This document shows positions 25,803-57,598 of a stretch of 64,000 nucleotides of DNA, in pieces; the first letter of the stretch is position 1; each line of letters opens with the position of its first letter. Source of the DNA: Hyphomicrobiales bacterium. GTDB lineage: Bacteria > Pseudomonadota > Alphaproteobacteria > Rhizobiales > Xanthobacteraceae. Below the pieces are notes generated by a model. The model saw only the letters and a program-made list of their open reading frames with translations. It was not told the DNA's origin and ran no database searches. Location of the stretch: positions 1-64,000 of the forward strand of contig JAFKKH010000024.1 in the NCBI GenBank assembly GCA_017305665.1, given 5' to 3'. Position numbers and translations under genes: made by a program.

Positions 25803-25876
25803 TGGAGGCCACGTCCGGAATTGAACCGGAGTACACGGTTTTGCAGACCGTTGCGTAACCACTCCGCCACGTGGCC
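25803..25876 (-). tRNA. tRNA-Cys (anticodon GCA)
   Basis: A complete cloverleaf is present. The acceptor stem is GGCCACG / CGTGGCC, the discriminator base is U, and CCA is genomically encoded (25803-25805). The anticodon stem ACGGT / ACCGT encloses loop CTGCAAA with anticodon GCA at 25842-25844. The T-arm is CCGG-TTCAATT-CCGG. It lies at the boundary between backbone genes and the prophage, with the phage on the 5' side of the tRNA gene. Confidence 0.96.
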
Positions 25877-25944
25877 CCTTGCGCCGGACTTATAATAGAG
25901 TGTCAGGCACTTAGGCAACCTTGCTCAGACTGGATTGCGCAGAA

Positions 25945-30682: not shown

Positions 30683-31531
30683 ATGCGATGGGAGACTAAG
30701 TCACTCGCCTTCAGAGCACTTTCCGCAATCCCATTCGGGCAGGAGCTTCATCACATCGCGCAACGTAGGCTAACAAAGGAGTGGCCCCGCCCAATTGAGC
30801 ACCTTGAAAGCTATCGTCAGCGCGCCATCCTGATCTGCGAGCTCTTCGAGAAAAACTCAAAGCGGTCGTTAGCTGAGGCCAACTTCGTGGAGATCGGAGC
30901 TGGACGAGACCTTGCGCTGGCAATCGCACTGCGCACGCTAGGGGTGGCGCACGTCACTTGCATCGATATCAAGCGCATCGCCAAACTCGATCTCATCAAT
31001 CACGCCGCAAAAGTCCTTGGCGCCGCTCGCGCCCTCCAATCGTGGGACGATTTGACTGCGTTCGGCATCAACTATCTCGCACCGGCATCAGCCGAACGGA
31101 CCACACTCCCTGACGACAATGTCGATTGCTTTTGCACGTCAGAAGTACTGGAACATATTCCGTCCGATTCACTGACCGCGATCCTGACGGAATCCCTCCG
31201 ATACCTGAAGCCGGGTGGCTTGCACATTCACGCCATTGATTACAGCGACCACTATGCCCGGTCAGACTCCGCGATTTCTCGCTTCAATTTTCTCAAGTTC
31301 TCCGACTCTGAATGGCGCAAACACAACAGTGCTTTTCAGTACGTTAACCGACTGCGACATTCTGACTACGAAAGGCTTTTTCTGGAATCTGGATACTCCA
31401 TTGAGAGCAGCGATCCTCATCGCGAGGCTATCCCACATGATGTATCAGCCAATCTCGCGGAGCGATTTTCAAGATATACCCAAGACGATTTAGGTGCGCT
31501 CCGCTCGATCATCGTGGCGCGGAAACGATAG
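30683..31531 (+). CDS. Class I SAM-dependent methyltransferase (lysogenic cargo candidate)
   Basis: This 282-residue protein has a Rossmann-type methyltransferase core. FVEIGAGRDLALAIALRTLG is motif I, followed by VTCIDIK. DDNVDCFCTSEVLEHIPSDS matches the usual motif IV/post-IV region, and LRYLKPGGLHIHAIDYSDHY is the product-loop region. Substrate unknown; such orphan enzymes often act on glycans or lipids. It is the only gene on the plus strand inside the late region, has its own ribosome site (GAGAGG) and a 106-bp upstream gap for a promoter, and has visibly lower GC. This is typical of a 'moron' expressed from the lysogen. Confidence 0.8.
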   Translation: MRWETKSLAFRALSAIPFGQELHHIAQRRLTKEWPRPIEHLESYRQRAILICELFEKNSKRSLAEANFVEIGAGRDLALAIALRTLGVAHVTCIDIKRIAKLDLINHAAKVLGAARALQSWDDLTAFGINYLAPASAERTTLPDDNVDCFCTSEVLEHIPSDSLTAILTESLRYLKPGGLHIHAIDYSDHYARSDSAISRFNFLKFSDSEWRKHNSAFQYVNRLRHSDYERLFLESGYSIESSDPHREAIPHDVSANLAERFSRYTQDDLGALRSIIVARKR

Positions 31532-44681: not shown

Positions 44682-45028
44682 CCCCTCACCTGCAGAACGT
44701 AAGCGCAAAGCGTCGAACCGACGCGGCGCGATTTGTCGTCAATGCCTGCGATCGCGAGCTCCTTGCCGCGGACGACGATCTTATCTGTCGAGAGAAGCGG
44801 CAGCGAGACGTTGCCGCCCTCGAGGTCCTGCGCCAGCACGATGATCTTCCAATCGCCCTGCAGAACTGGCCCGACGATCTCGTTCGGCGCGTAGGAATCC
44901 TCTTTCCCCTGGCAAGCCTGTTCATATTTTGAACGCGGCGTTCCCGATCCGTAGTACCGGCGGATCGTGACGGTCTCGCAGGCGCCCAGCGCGCGCGCAT
45001 AGGCCTGACGGGCATATTCGGGCGTCAT
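44678..45028 (-). CDS. Head-tail joining / completion protein
   Basis: This 116-residue protein starts MTPEYARQAYARALGACETV. A small beta barrel is suggested by VGPVLQGDWKIIVLAQDLEG and LLSTDKIVVRGKELAIAGID, the usual look of head-closure (stopper) proteins. Both ends overlap neighbours by ATGA. Assignment is by position and fold impression only. Confidence 0.55.
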   Translation of the reverse strand: MTPEYARQAYARALGACETVTIRRYYGSGTPRSKYEQACQGKEDSYAPNEIVGPVLQGDWKIIVLAQDLEGGNVSLPLLSTDKIVVRGKELAIAGIDDKSRRVGSTLCAYVLQVRG

Positions 45029-45663
45029 GCCTGCCCCGTTCGCCGCCACCGCGCCAGTTTCGTGACGACGCTTGGCGGCAGCTCACCGTCCTCGCCGACG
45101 GCGCCGACCCAATATTGCGTCGAGATCACGCCCGGAATCTCCTCGGACTTCACGGTCGGATCGCGCCCCTTCGCTGACCAGTAGCTCGACACAAGATCGA
45201 TGCAGGCGCCCTCGATGGCTGCCGGCAAGTCGCTGTTGCTTGCCCCGGGCAGAATATAGCCGCCATCATAGGTCACGACGACGCTCTTGCAGAAGAACCA
45301 GGGGATGGGATAGCCGCCTGTATCCAATGCGAATAGCTCGCCGGTCTTGGGGTCGAACCGGTAGAGGGAATTCGAAAGCGGATCGCCGCCATCGACGACG
45401 ACCGACGCGATTGAAGCGATCGGGATCCTGTCCAGTGCAAGCCTGTCCGGCACGGAATCGTACTGCTCATGCCAAAACGTCTCGACGGCCGTCTCCCGGA
45501 CAACCCGAAACCCGAGAGCGGCCTCAATGTCCTCGCTGGCCTCATCGATCTTGGCCTGCAAAACGGTGTCACGGTTTGCATCGGTACCAGTCAGACCCAG
45601 CTCCAGCTTGACGCGATCGAGGGTCACCAGGGCGGTATCCGCCGCCGGCGAGGCAACAGTCAC
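45025..45663 (-). CDS. Head-tail connector protein (gp6-like adaptor)
   Basis: This 212-residue protein has LDRVKLELGLTGTDANRDTV and LQAKIDEASEDIEAALGFRV, the helical start of phage gp6-like head-tail connectors. It also has the DRIPIASIASVVVDG and VVTYDGGYILPG segments typical of the family. The GTG at 45663 has GAGG six bases upstream; an earlier GTG at 45675 overlaps the preceding stop. It forms the first ring below the portal. Confidence 0.78.
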   Translation of the reverse strand: MTVASPAADTALVTLDRVKLELGLTGTDANRDTVLQAKIDEASEDIEAALGFRVVRETAVETFWHEQYDSVPDRLALDRIPIASIASVVVDGGDPLSNSLYRFDPKTGELFALDTGGYPIPWFFCKSVVVTYDGGYILPGASNSDLPAAIEGACIDLVSSYWSAKGRDPTVKSEEIPGVISTQYWVGAVGEDGELPPSVVTKLARWRRTGQA

Positions 45664-45671
45664 GATCGACC

Positions 45672-46319
45672 TCACTTCAGCACCTCATCGAGCGAAACGT
45701 GCCGAAATTCTGTCAAAGCACTGCCATCTGTGGCGTTGATGACGTCGACGCCGGCGGCGCGGGCCGCTGCGTTCCAGCCGGCAAAGCCCGGACGGAATTC
45801 CCGCTCATAGATGCTGACGTCCCGTGGCCCTTTGTATTCGCCATGGAAGTGCTCCCGGCCCTCGACGAACCGCATGTCGTAGCCCAGCAGCACGACGCAG
45901 GCTGCACCCAGCGCGATCGCAAGGCTCACCGCCGTATGCCCGCTCGATCGGCCCTGCTGGATAACATCACGCCCCCGACTGAAGCTCGGCAGCGCCTGAG
46001 GATCGCCCTCGCCGCGCACCCGCCTGACCTTGTCCGGCAGTTCGCGCTTGGCCGTCCGCGACATCGAGACCACCAGACCTTGCCAGCTCTTCACCAACTC
46101 GCGCCGGGGCTCGTACCAGCTCGAGTCCGTGAAGAACAAAACTGAATCTGGCGGCGCCAGTACCGCCGACGAATTGACGGCGATTGCGCAACGGCCCCGG
46201 ATGCGTTCACAGATCTCCGCCGTCAGGCTCGGGCCCGACGCCAGGCAAAAGATCGTCTCGCCCTTGAACAGAGGTTCGGGCGACCAGAATTCGAGTTCGC
46301 GGGTTGCGGCAGCTGTCAT
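45672..46319 (-). CDS. MptE-like / Maf-like (DUF115) sugar-transferase-type protein
   Basis: This 215-residue protein has IFCLASGPSLTAEICERIRG near the N-terminus and GRSSGHTAVSLAIALGA followed by VVLLGYDMRF. These are the signatures of the MptE-like domain (formerly DUF115), also the core of Maf flagellin glycosyltransferases. In phages such proteins are seen beside glycosyltransferases. It starts at the stop of the glycosyltransferase gene (ATGA). Role inferred: transfer or activation of a sugar on a virion protein. Confidence 0.68.
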   Translation of the reverse strand: MTAAATRELEFWSPEPLFKGETIFCLASGPSLTAEICERIRGRCAIAVNSSAVLAPPDSVLFFTDSSWYEPRRELVKSWQGLVVSMSRTAKRELPDKVRRVRGEGDPQALPSFSRGRDVIQQGRSSGHTAVSLAIALGAACVVLLGYDMRFVEGREHFHGEYKGPRDVSIYEREFRPGFAGWNAAARAAGVDVINATDGSALTEFRHVSLDEVLK

Positions 46320-46939
46320 ACCCAGTGCTCCCTCACCCATTCCGCCTCTGGACGACCTACAAGCTCATGCGGTTTGTCGTTGCCGTGGAAGTAGACAATC
46401 CGCGCATCACCCAGCCCATGACTGCGAACGTGCCCCTTGAACGAAACGACGTGTCCCGGAAAGACATCGTCGATAAAGGCGTGCGGCTGCTGCCGGATCC
46501 ACTCCATGTCGTTCTCACCACGCCAACGCGACCAGACGTCCTGCTTTCCGGCCGGCACGAGAGCGACGCCATTGCACGCTCGCGACGGCATATAGGGATC
46601 GCGCGGAAGTGCGATCACGTCGCTTGTCAGGCAATAGCCGGCCAGATGATCGATGTTGCCGGTAATCACGGTGTCGAGCCCCATCAGGATCATCGGCTGG
46701 CCCAGGCGATACGGCTCGGTGAAAGAGCCATAACTGATCGGGCGTGCCAGAAGCGGCTCCTGGCTAATCGAAGGGCCAAGGCATCTCGGCTCATCGGTGA
46801 ACAGCACGAATCTGAACGGCTGGGTCAGATTGCGCGCCACACCGCGGTAAAGTTTCTCAACCCAGCTTTCGTCATAGCAGCGCGAGAATGGCTGAGAGGC
46901 GCCGTTAGCCTGCCAAAGGCAGGTCGCAACGTGCAGCAT
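46316..46939 (-). CDS. GT-A type glycosyltransferase
   Basis: This 207-residue protein starts MLHVATCLWQANGASQPFSR. FRFVLFTDEP and GQPMILMGLDTVITGNIDHL have the layout of GT-A transferases, with GLD (Asp89) in place of the usual DxD. YMPSRACNGVALVPAGKQDVW and a C-terminal HGNDKPHEL follow. The ATG at 46939 has GAGGGA seven bases upstream. It overlaps the end of the acetyltransferase gene by 35 bp. Donor and acceptor are unknown. Confidence 0.7.
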   Translation of the reverse strand: MLHVATCLWQANGASQPFSRCYDESWVEKLYRGVARNLTQPFRFVLFTDEPRCLGPSISQEPLLARPISYGSFTEPYRLGQPMILMGLDTVITGNIDHLAGYCLTSDVIALPRDPYMPSRACNGVALVPAGKQDVWSRWRGENDMEWIRQQPHAFIDDVFPGHVVSFKGHVRSHGLGDARIVYFHGNDKPHELVGRPEAEWVREHWV

Positions 46940-47465
46940 GTGATCCCTCGCTCCCCGCACCTCTCAGACGATCGGGACGGCGCGCCGACAGCGGCACCCA
47001 ACCGCCTTTTCTCTTCCAGAGCGAGCAAGGCGGCATCGAATGCGTGACCACGGCGCCAGCGGCGACAACTGAGTTCGCTCCGATCGACACGCCGGGCAGA
47101 ATGATCGCGCCGGCCCCGATCGAGGCGCCGTCAGCGATGTCGACCGTCACCATCCTGCGTGTAAGCAGCAACTCGGCATCGAAACCGTCCTTGCCCACAC
47201 GCGGCCAGCGGTCGTTGCAGACGATCACGCCGGGCCCGACGAACACATCGTTACCGAGCTTCGTTCCCGGATGCAGCTGCGCGCCATGACCGATCAGGCA
47301 CCGATCGCCGATGGTGGCCGCGTCGACAATGGCGCAGCCGCCGACCGAGCAATCTTCCCCGACATGGGCGCCCCGGATCACGCTGGCGAATTGCCAGACG
47401 ATCGAGCGATCGCCGATAACCGATCCTGCGACGTGCGCTTTATCGTGGATGGCCGCGGTCGTCAT
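46905..47465 (-). CDS. Hexapeptide-repeat acetyltransferase (WbpD/WlbB-like)
   Basis: This 186-residue left-handed beta-helix protein shows hexapeptide turns in GDRSIVWQFASVIRGAHVGE, ATIGDRCLIGHGAQLHPGTK and IADGASIGAGAIILPGVSIG. The segment VFVGPGVIVCNDRWPR corresponds to VFxGPxxxFTNDxxPR of UDP-3-amino-sugar N-acetyltransferases such as WbpD. The start is the ATG at 47465; the longer frame to 47651 runs antisense-like through another gene. It opens a three-gene sugar cassette within the structural operon. Confidence 0.75.
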   Translation of the reverse strand: MTTAAIHDKAHVAGSVIGDRSIVWQFASVIRGAHVGEDCSVGGCAIVDAATIGDRCLIGHGAQLHPGTKLGNDVFVGPGVIVCNDRWPRVGKDGFDAELLLTRRMVTVDIADGASIGAGAIILPGVSIGANSVVAAGAVVTHSMPPCSLWKRKGGWVPLSARRPDRLRGAGSEGSHAARCDLPLAG

Positions 47466-47469
47466 CGGC

Positions 47470-47805
47470 CTACTCCGACGTCTTCGAGGTCCCGGAGCCG
47501 CCGGAGTCCTGTGTAGGGAGGTTTGACAACTGGTTGAGGTGATCGAGGGCCTCTTCCGCCTTCTTCGATACGTCTTCGGCGAAGGCCTCGTACCGTCGGG
47601 CCACATCGACATGCTTGGCATACGCCGCTTCGAGCTTGGCGGCGGCAGCATCGGCCATATCGTCGGCCTTCTTCATCAGAGTCCCGCTGGCATTGGCCAG
47701 GCGCTGAATTCCCCGCATGCTCTTGTCCTTTTCGGTATGGCGGCCCGAAAGTTCGGCGATGGTGGCCCGGAGATGGCGATCGAGACGACCGCCTTCCGGT
47801 GTCAC
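47470..47805 (-). CDS. Helical phage structural/accessory protein
   Basis: This 111-residue protein is mostly helical (LMKKADDMADAAAAKLEAAY and EDVSKKAEEALDHLNQLSNL) with a Ser/Gly/Thr tail. It starts at a GTG overlapping the preceding stop (GTGA); an internal ATG (MRGIQRLANA) is the alternative. No family was recognised. The coiled-coil character and position suggest a virion or assembly accessory role. Confidence 0.55.
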   Translation of the reverse strand: MTPEGGRLDRHLRATIAELSGRHTEKDKSMRGIQRLANASGTLMKKADDMADAAAAKLEAAYAKHVDVARRYEAFAEDVSKKAEEALDHLNQLSNLPTQDSGGSGTSKTSE

Positions 47806-48185
47806 GTAGGGTTGCGGCGCGCCTGCTCGGCGGCGATCGCCTTCAGCGCATCGTCTTTGGTCTTGATCGCCGCGGGTTCATCACTGACCGATTGGCCGAT
47901 CTTGATCAGATCCGCGTCTGCGATCTTCGTCAGATCAGCCGGAATCGCGATCTTGCCGCGGGCTTCGAGCTTCGCTGCAGCCTTGGCCGCCTCGGCGTCG
48001 GCTTTCGAGCGCGCGCGCTCTGCCGTCTCATCGTGCTCGACCGCATGGCCACGCTCAATATAGGCCCTCGCATACGTCTCCTCGACGCGACCCTTGAAGT
48101 CGACGACTTGATCCTTCTCATAGACCACGTCCTCGGCGCGAGTCTGACCGCGGATGATATGCTGTTCTGTGAACTTGATCTTCAT
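47802..48185 (-). CDS. Head accessory protein of unknown function
   Basis: This 127-residue protein begins MKIKFTEQHIIRGQTRAEDV. VVDFKGRVEETYARAYIERGHAV resembles small 'head fibre / DUF7210-like' proteins found after capsid genes. An Ala/Lys-rich coil follows. It is the first gene after the terminator at 48231-48258, so it may depend on read-through or on its own promoter. Confidence 0.55.
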   Translation of the reverse strand: MKIKFTEQHIIRGQTRAEDVVYEKDQVVDFKGRVEETYARAYIERGHAVEHDETAERARSKADAEAAKAAAKLEARGKIAIPADLTKIADADLIKIGQSVSDEPAAIKTKDDALKAIAAEQARRNPT

Positions 48186-48284: not shown

Positions 48285-48827
48285 TCAATCGACAATCATC
48301 GAGTCGAGCGCATCCTTCGGATAGCGCGGCTCGTGACCGAAGTAGAGGGCGCAACCGAGCTGAGCGTTGGTGCCGATGTCGGCGATCGAGACCTGAATGC
48401 AGTCGTAACCATTGTTGACGTCGAGGTCTTCGGCCTTGATGTCGATCACGATGATGGCCGCCTGTTCGGCAAGGTCGCTGTTGGTATAGGTGCCGTTCGT
48501 CGTGTTGAACGTGTCATTCGTTGCCGGCGAGCCCGACGTCGACTTCGTGAACTGGTCGACGGCCAGCAGGTTGGTCGCGGCCTGCTTCTTGCGAACCTCG
48601 GTGAAGCCAAGCGCCTTCGGGTTGGTACCAGAGACGTCCTGAGCCTGTTTCACGGTGATGGTCGGATCATCGCCGGCGGTGCCGACGGCCTTGAAGATCA
48701 CGATCGCTATGCGACCGTAGCCCTTCATGCTGACCCAGTCGCCGGCATTTGCGCCGGAATTCATGGCGACCGGCAGGAAGCCCTGCGCGATCTGGTTCTT
48801 CTCACAAAAATGCTGATTGAAGTCCAT
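48285..48827 (-). CDS. Head decoration-type protein
   Basis: This 180-residue protein starts MDFNQHFCEKNQIAQGFLPV. It is Thr/Asn/Gly-rich (KSTSGSPATNDTFNTTNGTY) and has beta segments ending FGHEPRYPKDALDSMIVD. It follows the major capsid gene and is itself followed by a terminator, the usual place of decoration or capsid-accessory proteins. AAGGGA precedes the ATG at 48827. Family not recognised. Confidence 0.6.
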   Translation of the reverse strand: MDFNQHFCEKNQIAQGFLPVAMNSGANAGDWVSMKGYGRIAIVIFKAVGTAGDDPTITVKQAQDVSGTNPKALGFTEVRKKQAATNLLAVDQFTKSTSGSPATNDTFNTTNGTYTNSDLAEQAAIIVIDIKAEDLDVNNGYDCIQVSIADIGTNAQLGCALYFGHEPRYPKDALDSMIVD

Positions 48828-48926
48828 TGGTGGTGGTCCCTTCGATAAATAGCGGGCCCGGAGGCGCGCGCGAATTGCGGGAGAGAGGAAGAAGCCTGCG
48901 CCCATCTAGGCGCAGGCTCAGTGCGA

Positions 48927-50393
48927 TCAGCGCGCCTGCAGTGCGACGGCCCAGGACAGGGTGTTGCTGCCGTTCTGGCGCGAGATCGGCGCCGACCATG
49001 CGGGCTGACCGTTCACCCGGAAGATGAAACGGAACGCCATCAGCGCCTGATCGAAGTACAGGTGGATGCTGGTGTCGGTCTGGATCGCACCGCCCGCCTT
49101 GGTCAGAGCCCAGTATTGGCTCAGATCGCAGAGGATAATGTCACCCAGGCTGCCGAGCGCCGCGCACGCCTCGACCGGAACGACCGGACGGCCCTTGAGG
49201 CGACCATAGGGCGCATCGTTGAGGCCACCCGGCGGCAGATAGGCCGGAGTGGACGATGCGGCGGTCGGCGTGATGCCGTTGCCGACGAACGCCATGCCCT
49301 CGAGCTGCGGCTCGACATCCTGGTTGACGAGCCAGATCGCGTTGCTGCGCCAGCCGGCATACATCCGGCCCCACATCTTGTTGATGTTGGCGAACCAGAC
49401 CGTTGCCGCGGGCTGCGAGGTCTCTTTCGACACCTGAATGACCGACGCGCCGACGGCGCTGTAGCCGGGGATCATGCCGAGCGGCTGGCCGGCGCCGGTG
49501 CCGGCCACGATCGCGGTATTGATCTTCGACGTCATCTTCTGCGGGGCCTTGGCATTCAGCCAGGACTCGAGGCCGGAGGCGTCCTGCATCATTTCCTCGC
49601 TGATCGGCACCAAAGCCGACAGCTTGGAGAGGCGCAGCTGGCCCATCTCAAAGAGGCCCTTCGACTGCGGGATCTGCGATCCTTCGCCTTCCCAATAGAC
49701 TTGCACACCCTTGGTGGTGTCCCAAGGCGTAACTTCATCCTTCGGAATGGTCAGGCTGTTGCCATCCGTCGTGAGCGGCGTACAGCGCGACAGCAGGCTC
49801 TCGATGCCGTTCACCTTCTGCCAAATGCTGGCCGAGAACGACGGAGGGATCAGGAAACCGCCGTCGGCGCCGACACCTTCGTTGCCGAAGGTACTCGCCG
49901 CATTGCGCAGTCGGGTGACGTTTTCATTCACGTTGCCCCGGTAGTGGTTCTGCACGGTCTGCGCGAACTCGCCGAACGAGCGGAATCCCATACGCTGGGC
50001 GTCCTGCCGCGGCTCCGCAGGCACGGTGCGTCCACGCTGCCCCGGCTCACCGCGGTTCTGCGGTTCGGCGCTGGAGCGGCGGCCCTGGCCGGTCGGCTGC
50101 AGCAGCTTCAGCGCCTTGATCTTCTTGGTGAGCTTTTCGAGCTCACCGGCGCTTTCCTCGATCTCGTTGGTCTCGTCGTCGGTCAGATCCTCACCGGCCT
50201 CCGCGCGAATACGGAACGCATCGAGCGTGGCATTGATCTCGACGACGCGGGCCTCGAGGTCGGCCAGCACTGGGCCTTCCATACGGATCGAGCCGAGCGG
50301 GATTGCGCCAGCGCCGGCGGCAACAGCCATCAGCGACATCGACGACAGTGCGAGCAACTTCATATCGCCCAGAAGGGCGCGCTTCATGGTCAT
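48927..50393 (-). CDS. HK97-fold major capsid protein with hydrophobic N-terminus
   Basis: This 488-residue protein has an N-terminal delta-like region with a coiled coil (LEARVVEINATLDAFRIRAE, NEIEESAGELEKLTKKIKAL). The HK97 fold follows (GFLIPPSFSASIWQKVNGIE, KLSALVPISEEMMQDASGLE, FVGNGITPTAASSTPAYLPP). The cleavage products of the ClpP-type protease encoded upstream should include the N-terminal part. Oddly, the N-terminus (MKLLALSSMSLMAVAAGAGA) looks like a signal peptide. The ATG at 50393 has AAGGA upstream; an ATG at 50282 would omit the hydrophobic segment but lacks a ribosome site. Confidence 0.88.
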   Translation of the reverse strand: MTMKRALLGDMKLLALSSMSLMAVAAGAGAIPLGSIRMEGPVLADLEARVVEINATLDAFRIRAEAGEDLTDDETNEIEESAGELEKLTKKIKALKLLQPTGQGRRSSAEPQNRGEPGQRGRTVPAEPRQDAQRMGFRSFGEFAQTVQNHYRGNVNENVTRLRNAASTFGNEGVGADGGFLIPPSFSASIWQKVNGIESLLSRCTPLTTDGNSLTIPKDEVTPWDTTKGVQVYWEGEGSQIPQSKGLFEMGQLRLSKLSALVPISEEMMQDASGLESWLNAKAPQKMTSKINTAIVAGTGAGQPLGMIPGYSAVGASVIQVSKETSQPAATVWFANINKMWGRMYAGWRSNAIWLVNQDVEPQLEGMAFVGNGITPTAASSTPAYLPPGGLNDAPYGRLKGRPVVPVEACAALGSLGDIILCDLSQYWALTKAGGAIQTDTSIHLYFDQALMAFRFIFRVNGQPAWSAPISRQNGSNTLSWAVALQAR

Positions 50394-50412
50394 AGAATTC
50401 TGTCCTTCTATG

Positions 50413-50517
50413 GGCTGTCTCGTCTCACGACGGGACTGTGATGCGGCCGATCTCACATCGGTCGCGTTGAACCGCGGGCCGCAATCACTGCGGGCCGCGT
50501 ATCCGTCTCAAGACGGA
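50413..50517 (-). promoter_or_regulatory. Array of four hairpins upstream of the capsid gene
   Basis: On the minus strand, four small hairpins follow each other between the protease stop and the capsid start: TCCGTC/GACGGA (50502-50517, loop TTGA), CGCGGCCCGCA/TGCGGCCCGCG with one central mismatch (50473-50499, loop GTGAT), CCGAT/ATCGG (50447-50461, loop GTGAG) and CGTC/GACG (50421-50432, loop GTGA). No U-tracts follow, so these are not terminators. Three loops share GTGA. Confidence 0.5.
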
Positions 50518-51275: not shown

Positions 51276-52175
51276 TCAATTCGGAGCGAGGACCTGGAAG
51301 GTTTCGCCATTGACGGTGATCTCGCGGACCATCAGGCGGTCGAGATCCTTTGCGCTGATCCGCGCCGGGAACGCATCGCCAAACTCGACCACGGCGGTCA
51401 CCGGCGCCGGCTGACCGTCCTTGCCGTCGCGACCGGCCCTGCCCTGCGGACCGGCTTCACCACGCGGGCCGGTCCTGCCGTCCTGGCCATCCTTGCCGTC
51501 GGCGCCCGGCGATCCATCCTTGCCGTCGGCGCCGGGTGGTCCGACGACATTGCCAACCTGCTCGGTTGAACCGTCGGTCATGGTGAGCGTCAGGACGCCA
51601 TCGACGATCTTTCCTGAGACGATCGAGCGCCCGGCGATGCCATCGCGGCCGTCGCGACCGTCCTTTCCATCGGAGCCGTTGCGACCATCGAGACCCCGGA
51701 CCCGGCCGAGCTCGAATGTCCGACCATTCGTTAGCGAGACCTGAAGATCGCCAGCGTCGCTCACTGCCAGATCGGCAACCCCGACGCCGTCGGCTCCATC
51801 CTTGCCGTCGACGCCGTCGCGGCCAGGCTGACCATCCTTGCCATCGGCACCGGGCGGGCCGTCCTTGCCGTCCGCTCCATCCTTGCCGTCGACTCCGTCT
51901 CGGCCAGGCTGACCGTCTTTGCCATTGACGCCGGGCGGGCCGTTCTTGCCGTCGGCACCATCTTTGCCGTCGACGCCATCGCGACCCGGCGCGCCATCCT
52001 TGCCGTCCCGGCCGGATGCACCATCGCGACCGTCACGCACAAGCGGCTTTTGCTCGAGCGCACGAATCCGGTTGGCCAGCGCCTCGACCAGACCGATCGT
52101 GCGCTCCAGCAACGACACCGGCTTTTTTGGCGGCTGCGGCTCGCCACGCGCGAGCATGACGGGAGCTTTAGACAT
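51276..52175 (-). CDS. Collagen-like triple-helix protein between portal and protease genes
   Basis: This 299-residue protein has an N-terminal helix (LLERTIGLVEALANRIRALE, about residues 22-41) that could trimerise. Three Gly-X-Y blocks follow (about 46-131, 161-182 and 212-255), separated by two small beta domains, with a C-terminal beta domain. The first block contains a 27-residue higher-order repeat (starting GRDGVDGKDGADG at about 64, 91 and, partly, 118), visible as 81-bp repeats in DNA. It overlaps the portal gene by 8 bp. A virion surface fibre is likely; the location is unusual for such a protein. Confidence 0.85.
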   Translation of the reverse strand: MSKAPVMLARGEPQPPKKPVSLLERTIGLVEALANRIRALEQKPLVRDGRDGASGRDGKDGAPGRDGVDGKDGADGKNGPPGVNGKDGQPGRDGVDGKDGADGKDGPPGADGKDGQPGRDGVDGKDGADGVGVADLAVSDAGDLQVSLTNGRTFELGRVRGLDGRNGSDGKDGRDGRDGIAGRSIVSGKIVDGVLTLTMTDGSTEQVGNVVGPPGADGKDGSPGADGKDGQDGRTGPRGEAGPQGRAGRDGKDGQPAPVTAVVEFGDAFPARISAKDLDRLMVREITVNGETFQVLAPN

Positions 52176-56950: not shown

Positions 56951-57598
56951 CTAGGACAGTCCCAAGGCGCGCATCAAGGTCTGATTCCGTCCCTCCGAGT
57001 CAAGGTCTAGTAGGTCGTCGAAGGCGGACCATGCACGGGTTGTTATGATCTCGGCGCGCAGGTCAGCCTCGGTGATCGGCTTCCGCGCAGGCCGCTTGGC
57101 AGTTTTGCGCCGGCCCTTCCAGCGTCGCTTCTTCTTCGACTTGCCGCGCACTGGCTCGGGATCGGGCTCGGGTTCAGCATCCGGCACTTCGATCACGATC
57201 GGCCGCTTCTGATTTTCAACGCGGCGAACGATGTCGATCTCCGCGTCCGTCAATGAGCCGACGATCGCAATGATGCCCGGCGTGTCAGCGACCCAACGCC
57301 AGTGCTGAATGCTCGGCCACATGAACACGAAGATGTAGCCGGAGAACAGCGGGACGCGTCGATCGAACTTGCGACCGCGCTTGACGACGGTTTCGTCGAC
57401 CTCCGGAATGTAAATCCCGAATCGGTGCTTGACTAACTCGGCCGCCACATCGGCCTGCGCTGATGCGAATACCTCGACCGCGTACCATCTTGGATCCGTG
57501 CCTGGGATGATTTCCGCGATCTGCGGATCACGCGGTTCGAAGGGCTTCGCCAGCGCCGCCATGACTTCTGGCGAGAACGCGTCCGACAGCGGTTTCAT
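56951..57598 (-). CDS. Phage NusG-like (NGN-domain) transcription factor without a visible KOW domain
   Basis: This 215-residue protein has an NGN domain at about residues 38-113: RWYAVEVFASAQADVAAELV, HRFGIYIPEVDETVVKRGRK, RRVPLFSGYIFVFMW and TPGIIAIVG. All are matched to NusG/RfaH consensus positions (WYAV, PLFPGYIFV, TPGV). Instead of a C-terminal KOW domain it has an acidic Pro-Asp linker (138-150), a strongly basic stretch (151-173) and a helical end. It should bind RNA polymerase beta' clamp helices. Its place between early genes and a terminator suggests antitermination of the late operon. Confidence 0.78.
   Translation of the reverse strand: MKPLSDAFSPEVMAALAKPFEPRDPQIAEIIPGTDPRWYAVEVFASAQADVAAELVKHRFGIYIPEVDETVVKRGRKFDRRVPLFSGYIFVFMWPSIQHWRWVADTPGIIAIVGSLTDAEIDIVRRVENQKRPIVIEVPDAEPEPDPEPVRGKSKKKRRWKGRRKTAKRPARKPITEADLRAEIITTRAWSAFDDLLDLDSEGRNQTLMRALGLS

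Follow-up and report, generated by a model that had tools for sequence, protein, structure and literature searches.

Why should a phage carry enzymes for sugar modification among its head genes? The question is raised by a 64,000-nucleotide stretch of DNA from a Hyphomicrobiales bacterium (assembly GCA_017305665.1, contig JAFKKH010000024.1, positions 1 to 64,000), here called the window. It contains part of a prophage in which three overlapping minus-strand open reading frames (ORFs), at 45672-47465, have the capsid genes on one side and the head-tail adaptor gene on the other. An earlier reading, made from the letters of the window alone (the sequence-only reading), had described them as a sugar-modification cassette coupled by overlaps inside the head operon. 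It assigned the products to a WbpD-like hexapeptide acetyltransferase, a GT-A glycosyltransferase and an MptE/Maf-like (DUF115) protein, and suggested that together they glycosylate the virion. All of the ORFs are present in this place. The acetyltransferase and glycosyltransferase genes overlap by 35 nucleotides, the glycosyltransferase and DUF115 genes by 4 (DUF115 start at 46319) and the DUF115 and adaptor genes by a further 4 (adaptor start at 45675). Our analysis suggests that the cassette is probably a phage-encoded virion glycosylation system, a new set of enzymes for a known kind of process, with a virion protein as the presumed acceptor.

By profile and fold matches all three products look like sugar-modification enzymes, as had been proposed. 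The first is a hexapeptide acetyltransferase, a class assignment well supported by its sequence. Most of the family profile can be aligned with PDB entries 7s3u (5e-45), 4mzu (7.5e-43) and 3mqg (1.5e-31), which we take to be sugar N-acetyltransferases like FdtD (the name of 4mzu) and WlbB (that of 3mqg). The protein falls below every curated cut-off among its best 25 matches, the top one being NeuD_NnaD with 64.1 bits against the 160.8 needed. It has in common with the WbpD, WlbB and FdtD 3-amino-sugar N-acetyltransferases the beta-helix and an NDxxPR-like stretch, whereas its C-terminal tail, compared by eye, is unlike theirs.

The second protein is a GT8-like glycosyltransferase, a class well supported by profile match and predicted structure. 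It matches phrog_1962 ('glycosyltransferase', 1.6e-44), and its AlphaFold2 (AF2) model, with a predicted local distance difference test score (pLDDT) of 92.9, has a GT-A fold of the glycogenin/LgtC type by Foldseek. The best match is the Skp1 alpha-galactosyltransferase 6mw5 (2.6e-7), followed by glycogenins from 2.7e-7, with TMq values of 0.53-0.63. The C-terminal HG..KP motif of GT8 enzymes is present, with H185, G186 and K189 invariant and P190 nearly so across 11 sequences. The canonical DxD motif is absent; residues 87-89 read GLD instead.

The DUF115 protein matches phrog_4603 ('alpha-2;3-sialyltransferase', 1.6e-47, profile positions 1-173 of 178), and conserved motifs run across its relatives. 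The Pfam MptE-like family (PF01973) matches residues 102-153 at 4.4e-6 and 27 bits, under the gathering score of 34.6. For the AF2 model (pLDDT 85.8) the best solved structure in Foldseek was CstII, 2drj (E 3.4e-3, prob 1.00, TMq 0.53); in the viral library it matched proteins labelled MptE-like and DUF115, with weaker matches to viral sialyltransferases. Maf flagellin glycosyltransferases are large multidomain proteins in which DUF115 is central. We rejected a Maf assignment since this protein has 215 residues, a single domain and a predicted fold whose best solved match is CstII. The pterin pyrophosphokinase 8sd5 was among the chance-level PDB matches (E 0.81), and a pterin enzyme is unlikely given the glycan-enzyme neighbours described below.

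Evidence that these genes belong together comes from their relatives. A scan of IMG/VR with the glycosyltransferase alignment gave 203 relatives, the best 80 entering the analysis, and a scan of 84,980 genomes gave 14 matches, one of which (L128, a 30-residue match) was dropped. With nine earlier loci this yielded 99 loci with a glycosyltransferase match, grouped into 66 clusters at 90% identity. The best 80 are the relatives nearest to the window, so the counts describe its branch and not all phage glycosyltransferases. An acetyltransferase gene lies upstream of the glycosyltransferase gene on the same strand in 64 of the 66 clusters, and in the other two (L125 and L036) the contig starts at the glycosyltransferase. 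With distances taken to the longest possible glycosyltransferase ORF, the acetyltransferase overlaps its partner or ends within 45 nucleotides of it in 53 of the 64 clusters, with gaps of 107-790 nucleotides in 11. An arrangement kept in 64 of 66 clusters is not due to chance. A DUF115 gene is found within 4 kb in 31 of the 66 clusters (17 upstream, 14 downstream; two, L073 and L107, weakly scored) and in 22 of the 38 clusters with long flanks. The acetyltransferase and glycosyltransferase are a tight, fixed pair and DUF115 is a common partner on either side, which narrows the three-gene unit of the sequence-only reading to two genes and a frequent companion. In one of the 64 clusters (L038/L136) the pair is separated by an extra ORF (L136:12546-13337, the same as L038:8202-8993), which has a sub-threshold GIY-YIG match and is perhaps an inserted homing endonuclease. 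A GDSL-like lipase/acylhydrolase, possibly a deacetylase, is encoded downstream of the cassette at L136:17838-18767.

The altered metal motif appears to follow this pairing. Of 67 rows, one for the window and 66 for representatives, 65 have GLD; L047 has NLE and L112 a gap. D[LV]D is found in all 22 distinct relatives outside the window branch, including P1 PmgQ, phage phiNP and second glycosyltransferases of the same loci. The second acidic motif of the branch is GENDM or a near variant in most rows; in the other relatives it mostly ends in Q. We rechecked the motif in all 182 GT8-like matches, repeated contigs included. Among the 122 close relatives, 117 have GLD and an acetyltransferase match upstream, four have GLD with none seen upstream and one has NLE. 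Six divergent glycosyltransferases with an acetyltransferase-like match within 1 kb upstream divide into four GLD and two DLD (L187, L202), and the 54 divergent matches without one into 50 DxD, two GLD (L195, and L125 at a contig edge) and two gaps. Five of these DxD glycosyltransferases lie directly upstream of an acetyltransferase, and second glycosyltransferases in that place keep DxD. Being beside an acetyltransferase is therefore not sufficient for GLD; the motif seems to go with a gene position downstream of the acetyltransferase, an association that is strong and not perfect (exceptions L187, L202, L195 and L047). The pair with its altered metal motif presents a clean target for enzymology.

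Is the cassette a fixed part of the head operon? We compared the interval from the decoration-like gene to the head-tail adaptor gene, here called the slot, across relatives of the window head operon. The full three-gene set occupies the slot in L138-L141 and L148, and also in L136 and L137 with further ORFs. A glycosyltransferase and DUF115 gene with no recognised acetyltransferase are found in L143 (with two more ORFs) and L149, a weaker acetyltransferase match with DUF115 in L163 and L167, and DUF115 alone in L166, where a second DUF115 gene follows the adaptor. The slot of L144 holds no more than a small ORF, on a 10-kb contig that covers only that part of the phage. From these varied contents it follows that the cassette is no constant feature of the operon and that its content is exchanged; the three genes look like an accessory, modular glycan locus. 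In L164 an ORF that resembles a DegT-type sugar aminotransferase by eye (L164:8886-10022) adjoins a second DUF115 gene after the adaptor.

For the surroundings of the cassette, two non-cassette genes on either side of the glycosyltransferase were taken from the 38 long-flank loci (152 genes), and the four from L035 were dropped, leaving 148 genes from 37 loci. Portal, capsid and head-tail genes are frequent on these flanks, and they come from several phage types. In a raw ranking, made without a matched baseline of random phage genes, head-tail adaptor (13), portal (7) and Ad1 (7) led the named PHROG families, followed by more portal families and by families of major head and head morphogenesis proteins (among the best 25 of 246 families). 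Pfam families on the flanks included Phage_capsid, DUF4055 and Mu F (5 each), portal and tail completion (4 each) and SU10 (3 and 2; among the best 25 of 57). A separate DUF115 scan gave 160 relatives, of which 79 loci were kept, in 68 clusters. Within 4 kb, 32 of these clusters have a GT8-like gene, 16 an acetyltransferase-like gene and 12 both. The nearest neighbours (133 genes from the 68 clusters) are led by head-tail adaptor (22), Ad1 (14) and major head families (9, 8 and 8). By Pfam they include collagen-like (4), sulfotransferase (4), GT-D (3), methyltransferases (at most 3 per family), epimerase (1) and aminotransferase (1) matches; all of these except the collagen-like proteins are of glycan-tailoring types. 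Conservation beside capsid genes, a check suggested with the sequence-only reading, is thus seen in diverse phages as co-conservation of sugar-enzyme genes by head genes.

DUF115 relatives often directly adjoin adaptor genes, which raised the question of whether the DUF115 protein, and perhaps the others, acts in head assembly or as a virion component with no glycan being made. In one PAJU2 record (AP009624) the region of the DUF115 match is annotated as a structural protein and a hypothetical protein, relatives in P1 are termed putative morphogenetic in the accessible part of the P1 literature, and 32 of the 68 DUF115 clusters have neither partner within 4 kb. The L144 head operon, however, lacks all of these genes within its 10-kb contig, the P1 genes are listed as non-essential in the accessible text of their source, and the conserved motifs and glycan-enzyme neighbours of DUF115 also speak against such a role. 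We regard a role in assembly as quite improbable.

What, then, is being modified? Sugar-transferring genes are present in this phage and are linked to its virion genes, as virion glycosylation would lead one to expect. That reading is favoured by the enzyme classes and folds, the pair in 64 of 66 clusters, the head-gene neighbours, the modular slot, the lack of a base-hypermodification enzyme among ten prophage proteins scanned and the pseudaminic acid genes of the host. The cassette enzymes would be made together with the capsid, and their product would be a short modified sugar attached to a virion protein. The hexapeptide acetyltransferase may act on a sugar, its most likely target being an amino group on a nucleotide-linked amino sugar. 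The acetylated sugar would pass to the partner GT8-like transferase, to be attached either directly to the acceptor or to a first sugar already in place. A further sugar could then be added by the DUF115/CstII-like protein, possibly from a host cytidine monophosphate (CMP)-sugar such as pseudaminic acid or 3-deoxy-d-manno-octulosonic acid (Kdo).

Many phages are known to encode acetyl- and glycosyltransferases that bring about seroconversion, and the host has pseudaminate genes of its own. The enzymes might accordingly modify a host surface glycan (lipopolysaccharide, capsule or flagellin) during lysogeny or before lysis, and so block superinfection or re-adsorption. We consider this unlikely: the cassette lies among head genes in unrelated phage types, the presumed late expression would be of little use to a lysogen, and the three proteins have no GtrA or membrane O-acyltransferase family match of the kind that marks a gtr-type cassette. 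Phage glycosyltransferases can also hypermodify DNA (PMC12619734, in the accessible text, referring to Pyle 2024), and the cassette could in principle glycosylate phage DNA bases. Among ten scanned prophage proteins, a sample and not every ORF, there is no base hydroxylase or thymidylate-synthase-like family and only an MT-A70 methyltransferase, and the cassette is placed with head genes, not replication genes. Base glycosylation is therefore very improbable. That a virion protein is the acceptor we infer from where the genes lie, from what the slot contains and from the absence of base-hypermodification genes among those ten proteins.

The decoration-like protein encoded upstream of the slot offers a candidate acceptor. 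Its gene follows the major capsid protein (MCP) gene in all nine MCP-fetched loci that extend past MCP (L136-L144; L135 ends inside MCP), and the protein is 26-91% identical to 12 relatives. Across 385 genomes of the class, a search brought up no gene other than the window's own. One loop of the protein has 12 Ser/Thr in its densest 25 residues, a count that only the tail fibre equals in a set of 27 prophage proteins. The loop is kept in 10 of 10 distinct loci with a GT8-like gene, the window not counted; in seven loci where the stretch fetched has no such gene, it is ten residues shorter. The association has a Fisher p of 2.5e-4, which is overstated and reflects near a single event, because the GT8 loci form one clade in the tree. 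For this test repeated contigs were counted once and L142, L151 and L152, whose contigs end there, were excluded; of the excluded loci, L152 has the loop and lies outside the GT8 clade and L151 lacks it. The Ser/Thr-rich loop is the best single candidate, which we put forward tentatively and expect to be wrong more readily than right. The tail fibre, the tail tube and the capsid may also be acceptors.

The host can presumably supply pseudaminate, to judge from its genes. PseB, PseC, PseG and PseI score above curated cut-offs, with a CTP_transf_3 gene among them (genome G000, contig C38, L134:2494-11268). A NeuB-type gene is present in all nine genomes of the window's own genus, so its presence in the window host tells little. 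Hosts were sampled from the 14 genome-scan loci minus L120 (same strain as L119), L128 (the 30-residue match) and L127. Of the five searched hosts whose locus carries DUF115 (L115, L116, L118, L119 and L123), three have NeuB. Pseudaminic acid as a required donor was dropped, the pathway being present and NeuB not clearly enriched, and is kept as an option. Synthesis of the nucleotide sugar dTDP-Fuc3N via FdtA was rejected.

Several observations weigh against virion glycosylation. The glycosyltransferase has no Pfam match (0 families at E<=1) and lacks the canonical DxD. The CstII fold match of the DUF115 protein is weak at E 3.4e-3, and sequence searches with this protein returned no CstII. 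The DUF115 clusters with neither partner nearby count here too, as does the clade structure behind the loop association, to which L166 is an exception, having the loop and no GT8-like gene. On the supply side, 6 of 11 cassette hosts have NeuB-type genes against 42 of 101 relatives, which is no clear excess, and FdtA was not found in the host genome. For P1, pmgO, pmgP and pmgQ are listed as non-essential (PMC10695390, accessible text), and the main text of a virion proteome paper, as accessible, contains no word starting 'glycos' (PMC9024508). For phages with the cassette, we found no report of a measured glycan.

The features of the prophage discussed here are collected in Table 1. The element is a prophage of about 50 kb integrated at tRNA-Cys and flanked by a 42-bp repeat. 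Its minus-strand head operon runs from two terminase-like genes (named by eye) through portal, collagen-like, protease, MCP and decoration-like genes and two small ORFs to the acetyltransferase, glycosyltransferase and DUF115 genes, and on to head-tail adaptor, head closure, tail terminator and tail tube. PHROG matches downstream of the cassette are 1.2e-29 for the adaptor, 3.5e-4 for head closure and 4e-6 for the tail terminator. The collagen-like protein (window 51276-52175) lies in the portal/protease interval, where many related head operons have similar ORFs. A NusG-like protein at 56951-57598 (Pfam NusG 3.5e-14) is possibly a late antiterminator. A plus-strand ORF adjoining the tail fibre gene (30683-31531) looks methyltransferase-like by eye and has no NCBIfam match, and the MT-A70 methyltransferase is encoded at L129:1899-2978 (C13:65899-66978).

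Table 1. Coordinates of the cassette and associated prophage features in the window.
Feature	Position	Strand	Support or remark
WbpD/WlbB/FdtD-like left-handed beta-helix (hexapeptide) acetyltransferase, 186 aa	46905..47465	-	Pfam Hexapep 1.1e-22
GT8-like (GT-A fold) glycosyltransferase, 207 aa	46316..46939	-	phrog_1962; ORF extendable to GTG at 46960
MptE-like/DUF115, CstII-like putative glycosyltransferase, 215 aa	45672..46319	-	phrog_4603; alternative start 46340
Head-tail adaptor, downstream slot border	45025..45675	-	phrog_442 1.2e-29; Pfam Phage_connect_1 1.1e-4
Small ORF upstream of acetyltransferase	47470..47805	-	similar ORF in same place in L136, L137, L149
Small ORF	47802..48185	-	similar ORF after decoration-like gene in L136-L141 and L149
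Decoration-like protein, upstream slot border, candidate acceptor	48285..48905	-	phrog_28483 3.2e-11; named from place after MCP
Ser/Thr/Asn-rich loop of decoration-like protein, residues 122-143	48477..48542	-	Ser/Thr density
HK97-fold major capsid protein (MCP)	48927..50456	-	TIGR01554 1.3e-56
Attachment-site repeat in tRNA-Cys	25840..25881	.	exact 42-bp repeat; second copy at contig C13:76299-76340, beyond window

A wider picture can be drawn, one that we think possible and somewhat doubtful. Many types of tailed phage may share a hidden and variable virion-glycan locus by the head-tail adaptor, whose genes for sugar-, acetyl-, methyl- and sulfotransferases would be interchangeable. Within one branch the acetyltransferase would have become locked to a GT8-like enzyme whose active site has been rewired to GLD, and the product would sit on the Ser/Thr-rich loop of the capsid-coating protein. 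Glycosylation of phage-particle proteins is documented, in the accessible parts of the literature covered, for mycobacteriophages, and their virion glycosylation was reportedly described by Freeman in 2023. If our reading of the cassette is true, glycosylated virions would be far more widespread, including phages of Alphaproteobacteria and, through shared families, perhaps P1 and D3, so that classic laboratory phages may bear unnoticed virion glycans. Knockouts of P1 genes of the published kind, combined with mass spectrometry, make the question testable.

How does the cassette compare with known phages? No description of an acetyltransferase, glycosyltransferase and DUF115 set was found in the open-licence literature, most subscription journals lying outside that scope, which agrees with the sequence-only reading, to which the combination was not known as a described phage system. 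Among phage records, two (Citrobacter, Xanthomonas) are similar to the window glycosyltransferase, none to the acetyltransferase and 75 to the DUF115 protein, including D3, PAJU2 and P1. In D3, orf7 is a DUF115-like gene between the major head protein and the head-tail adaptor, together with one small ORF; in PAJU2 the DUF115-like gene, gp10, follows head closure, and the second gene beyond it encodes a methyltransferase. The stretches fetched from these two phages contain no ORF similar to the window glycosyltransferase or acetyltransferase. The Citrobacter phage phiNP has in succession an ORF similar to the window DUF115 protein (45 bits) and genes of phrog_2111 and phrog_1962, one gene before terS/terL; no acetyltransferase was found in the stretch, and the glycosyltransferase keeps DLD. 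In P1 the ORF in the place of pmgO belongs to phrog_4603 (4e-73) and PmgQ to phrog_1962 (2e-127), the families of the window DUF115 protein and glycosyltransferase. pmgO is un-annotated in the record used, and its place was taken from the order pmgO-pmgP-ppp-pmgQ in the accessible part of PMC10695390. No hexapeptide enzyme was found in the P1 stretch fetched and PmgQ keeps DLD; by the same source and the record, the pmg region adjoins genes 24, 7, 25 and 26, on the other strand. A parallel in function would be the mycobacteriophages Che8, Corndog and Myrna, whose glycosyltransferases glycosylate capsid and tail tube subunits according to the accessible texts of PMC12363180, PMC12619734 and PMC11256854. 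Those accounts mention no acetyltransferase/glycosyltransferase pair, and in the mycobacteriophage Maravista the glycosyltransferase genes are placed near the 3' end of the genome. In both cases, if we read the window cassette correctly, glycosyltransferases encoded by the phage itself place sugars on virion proteins.

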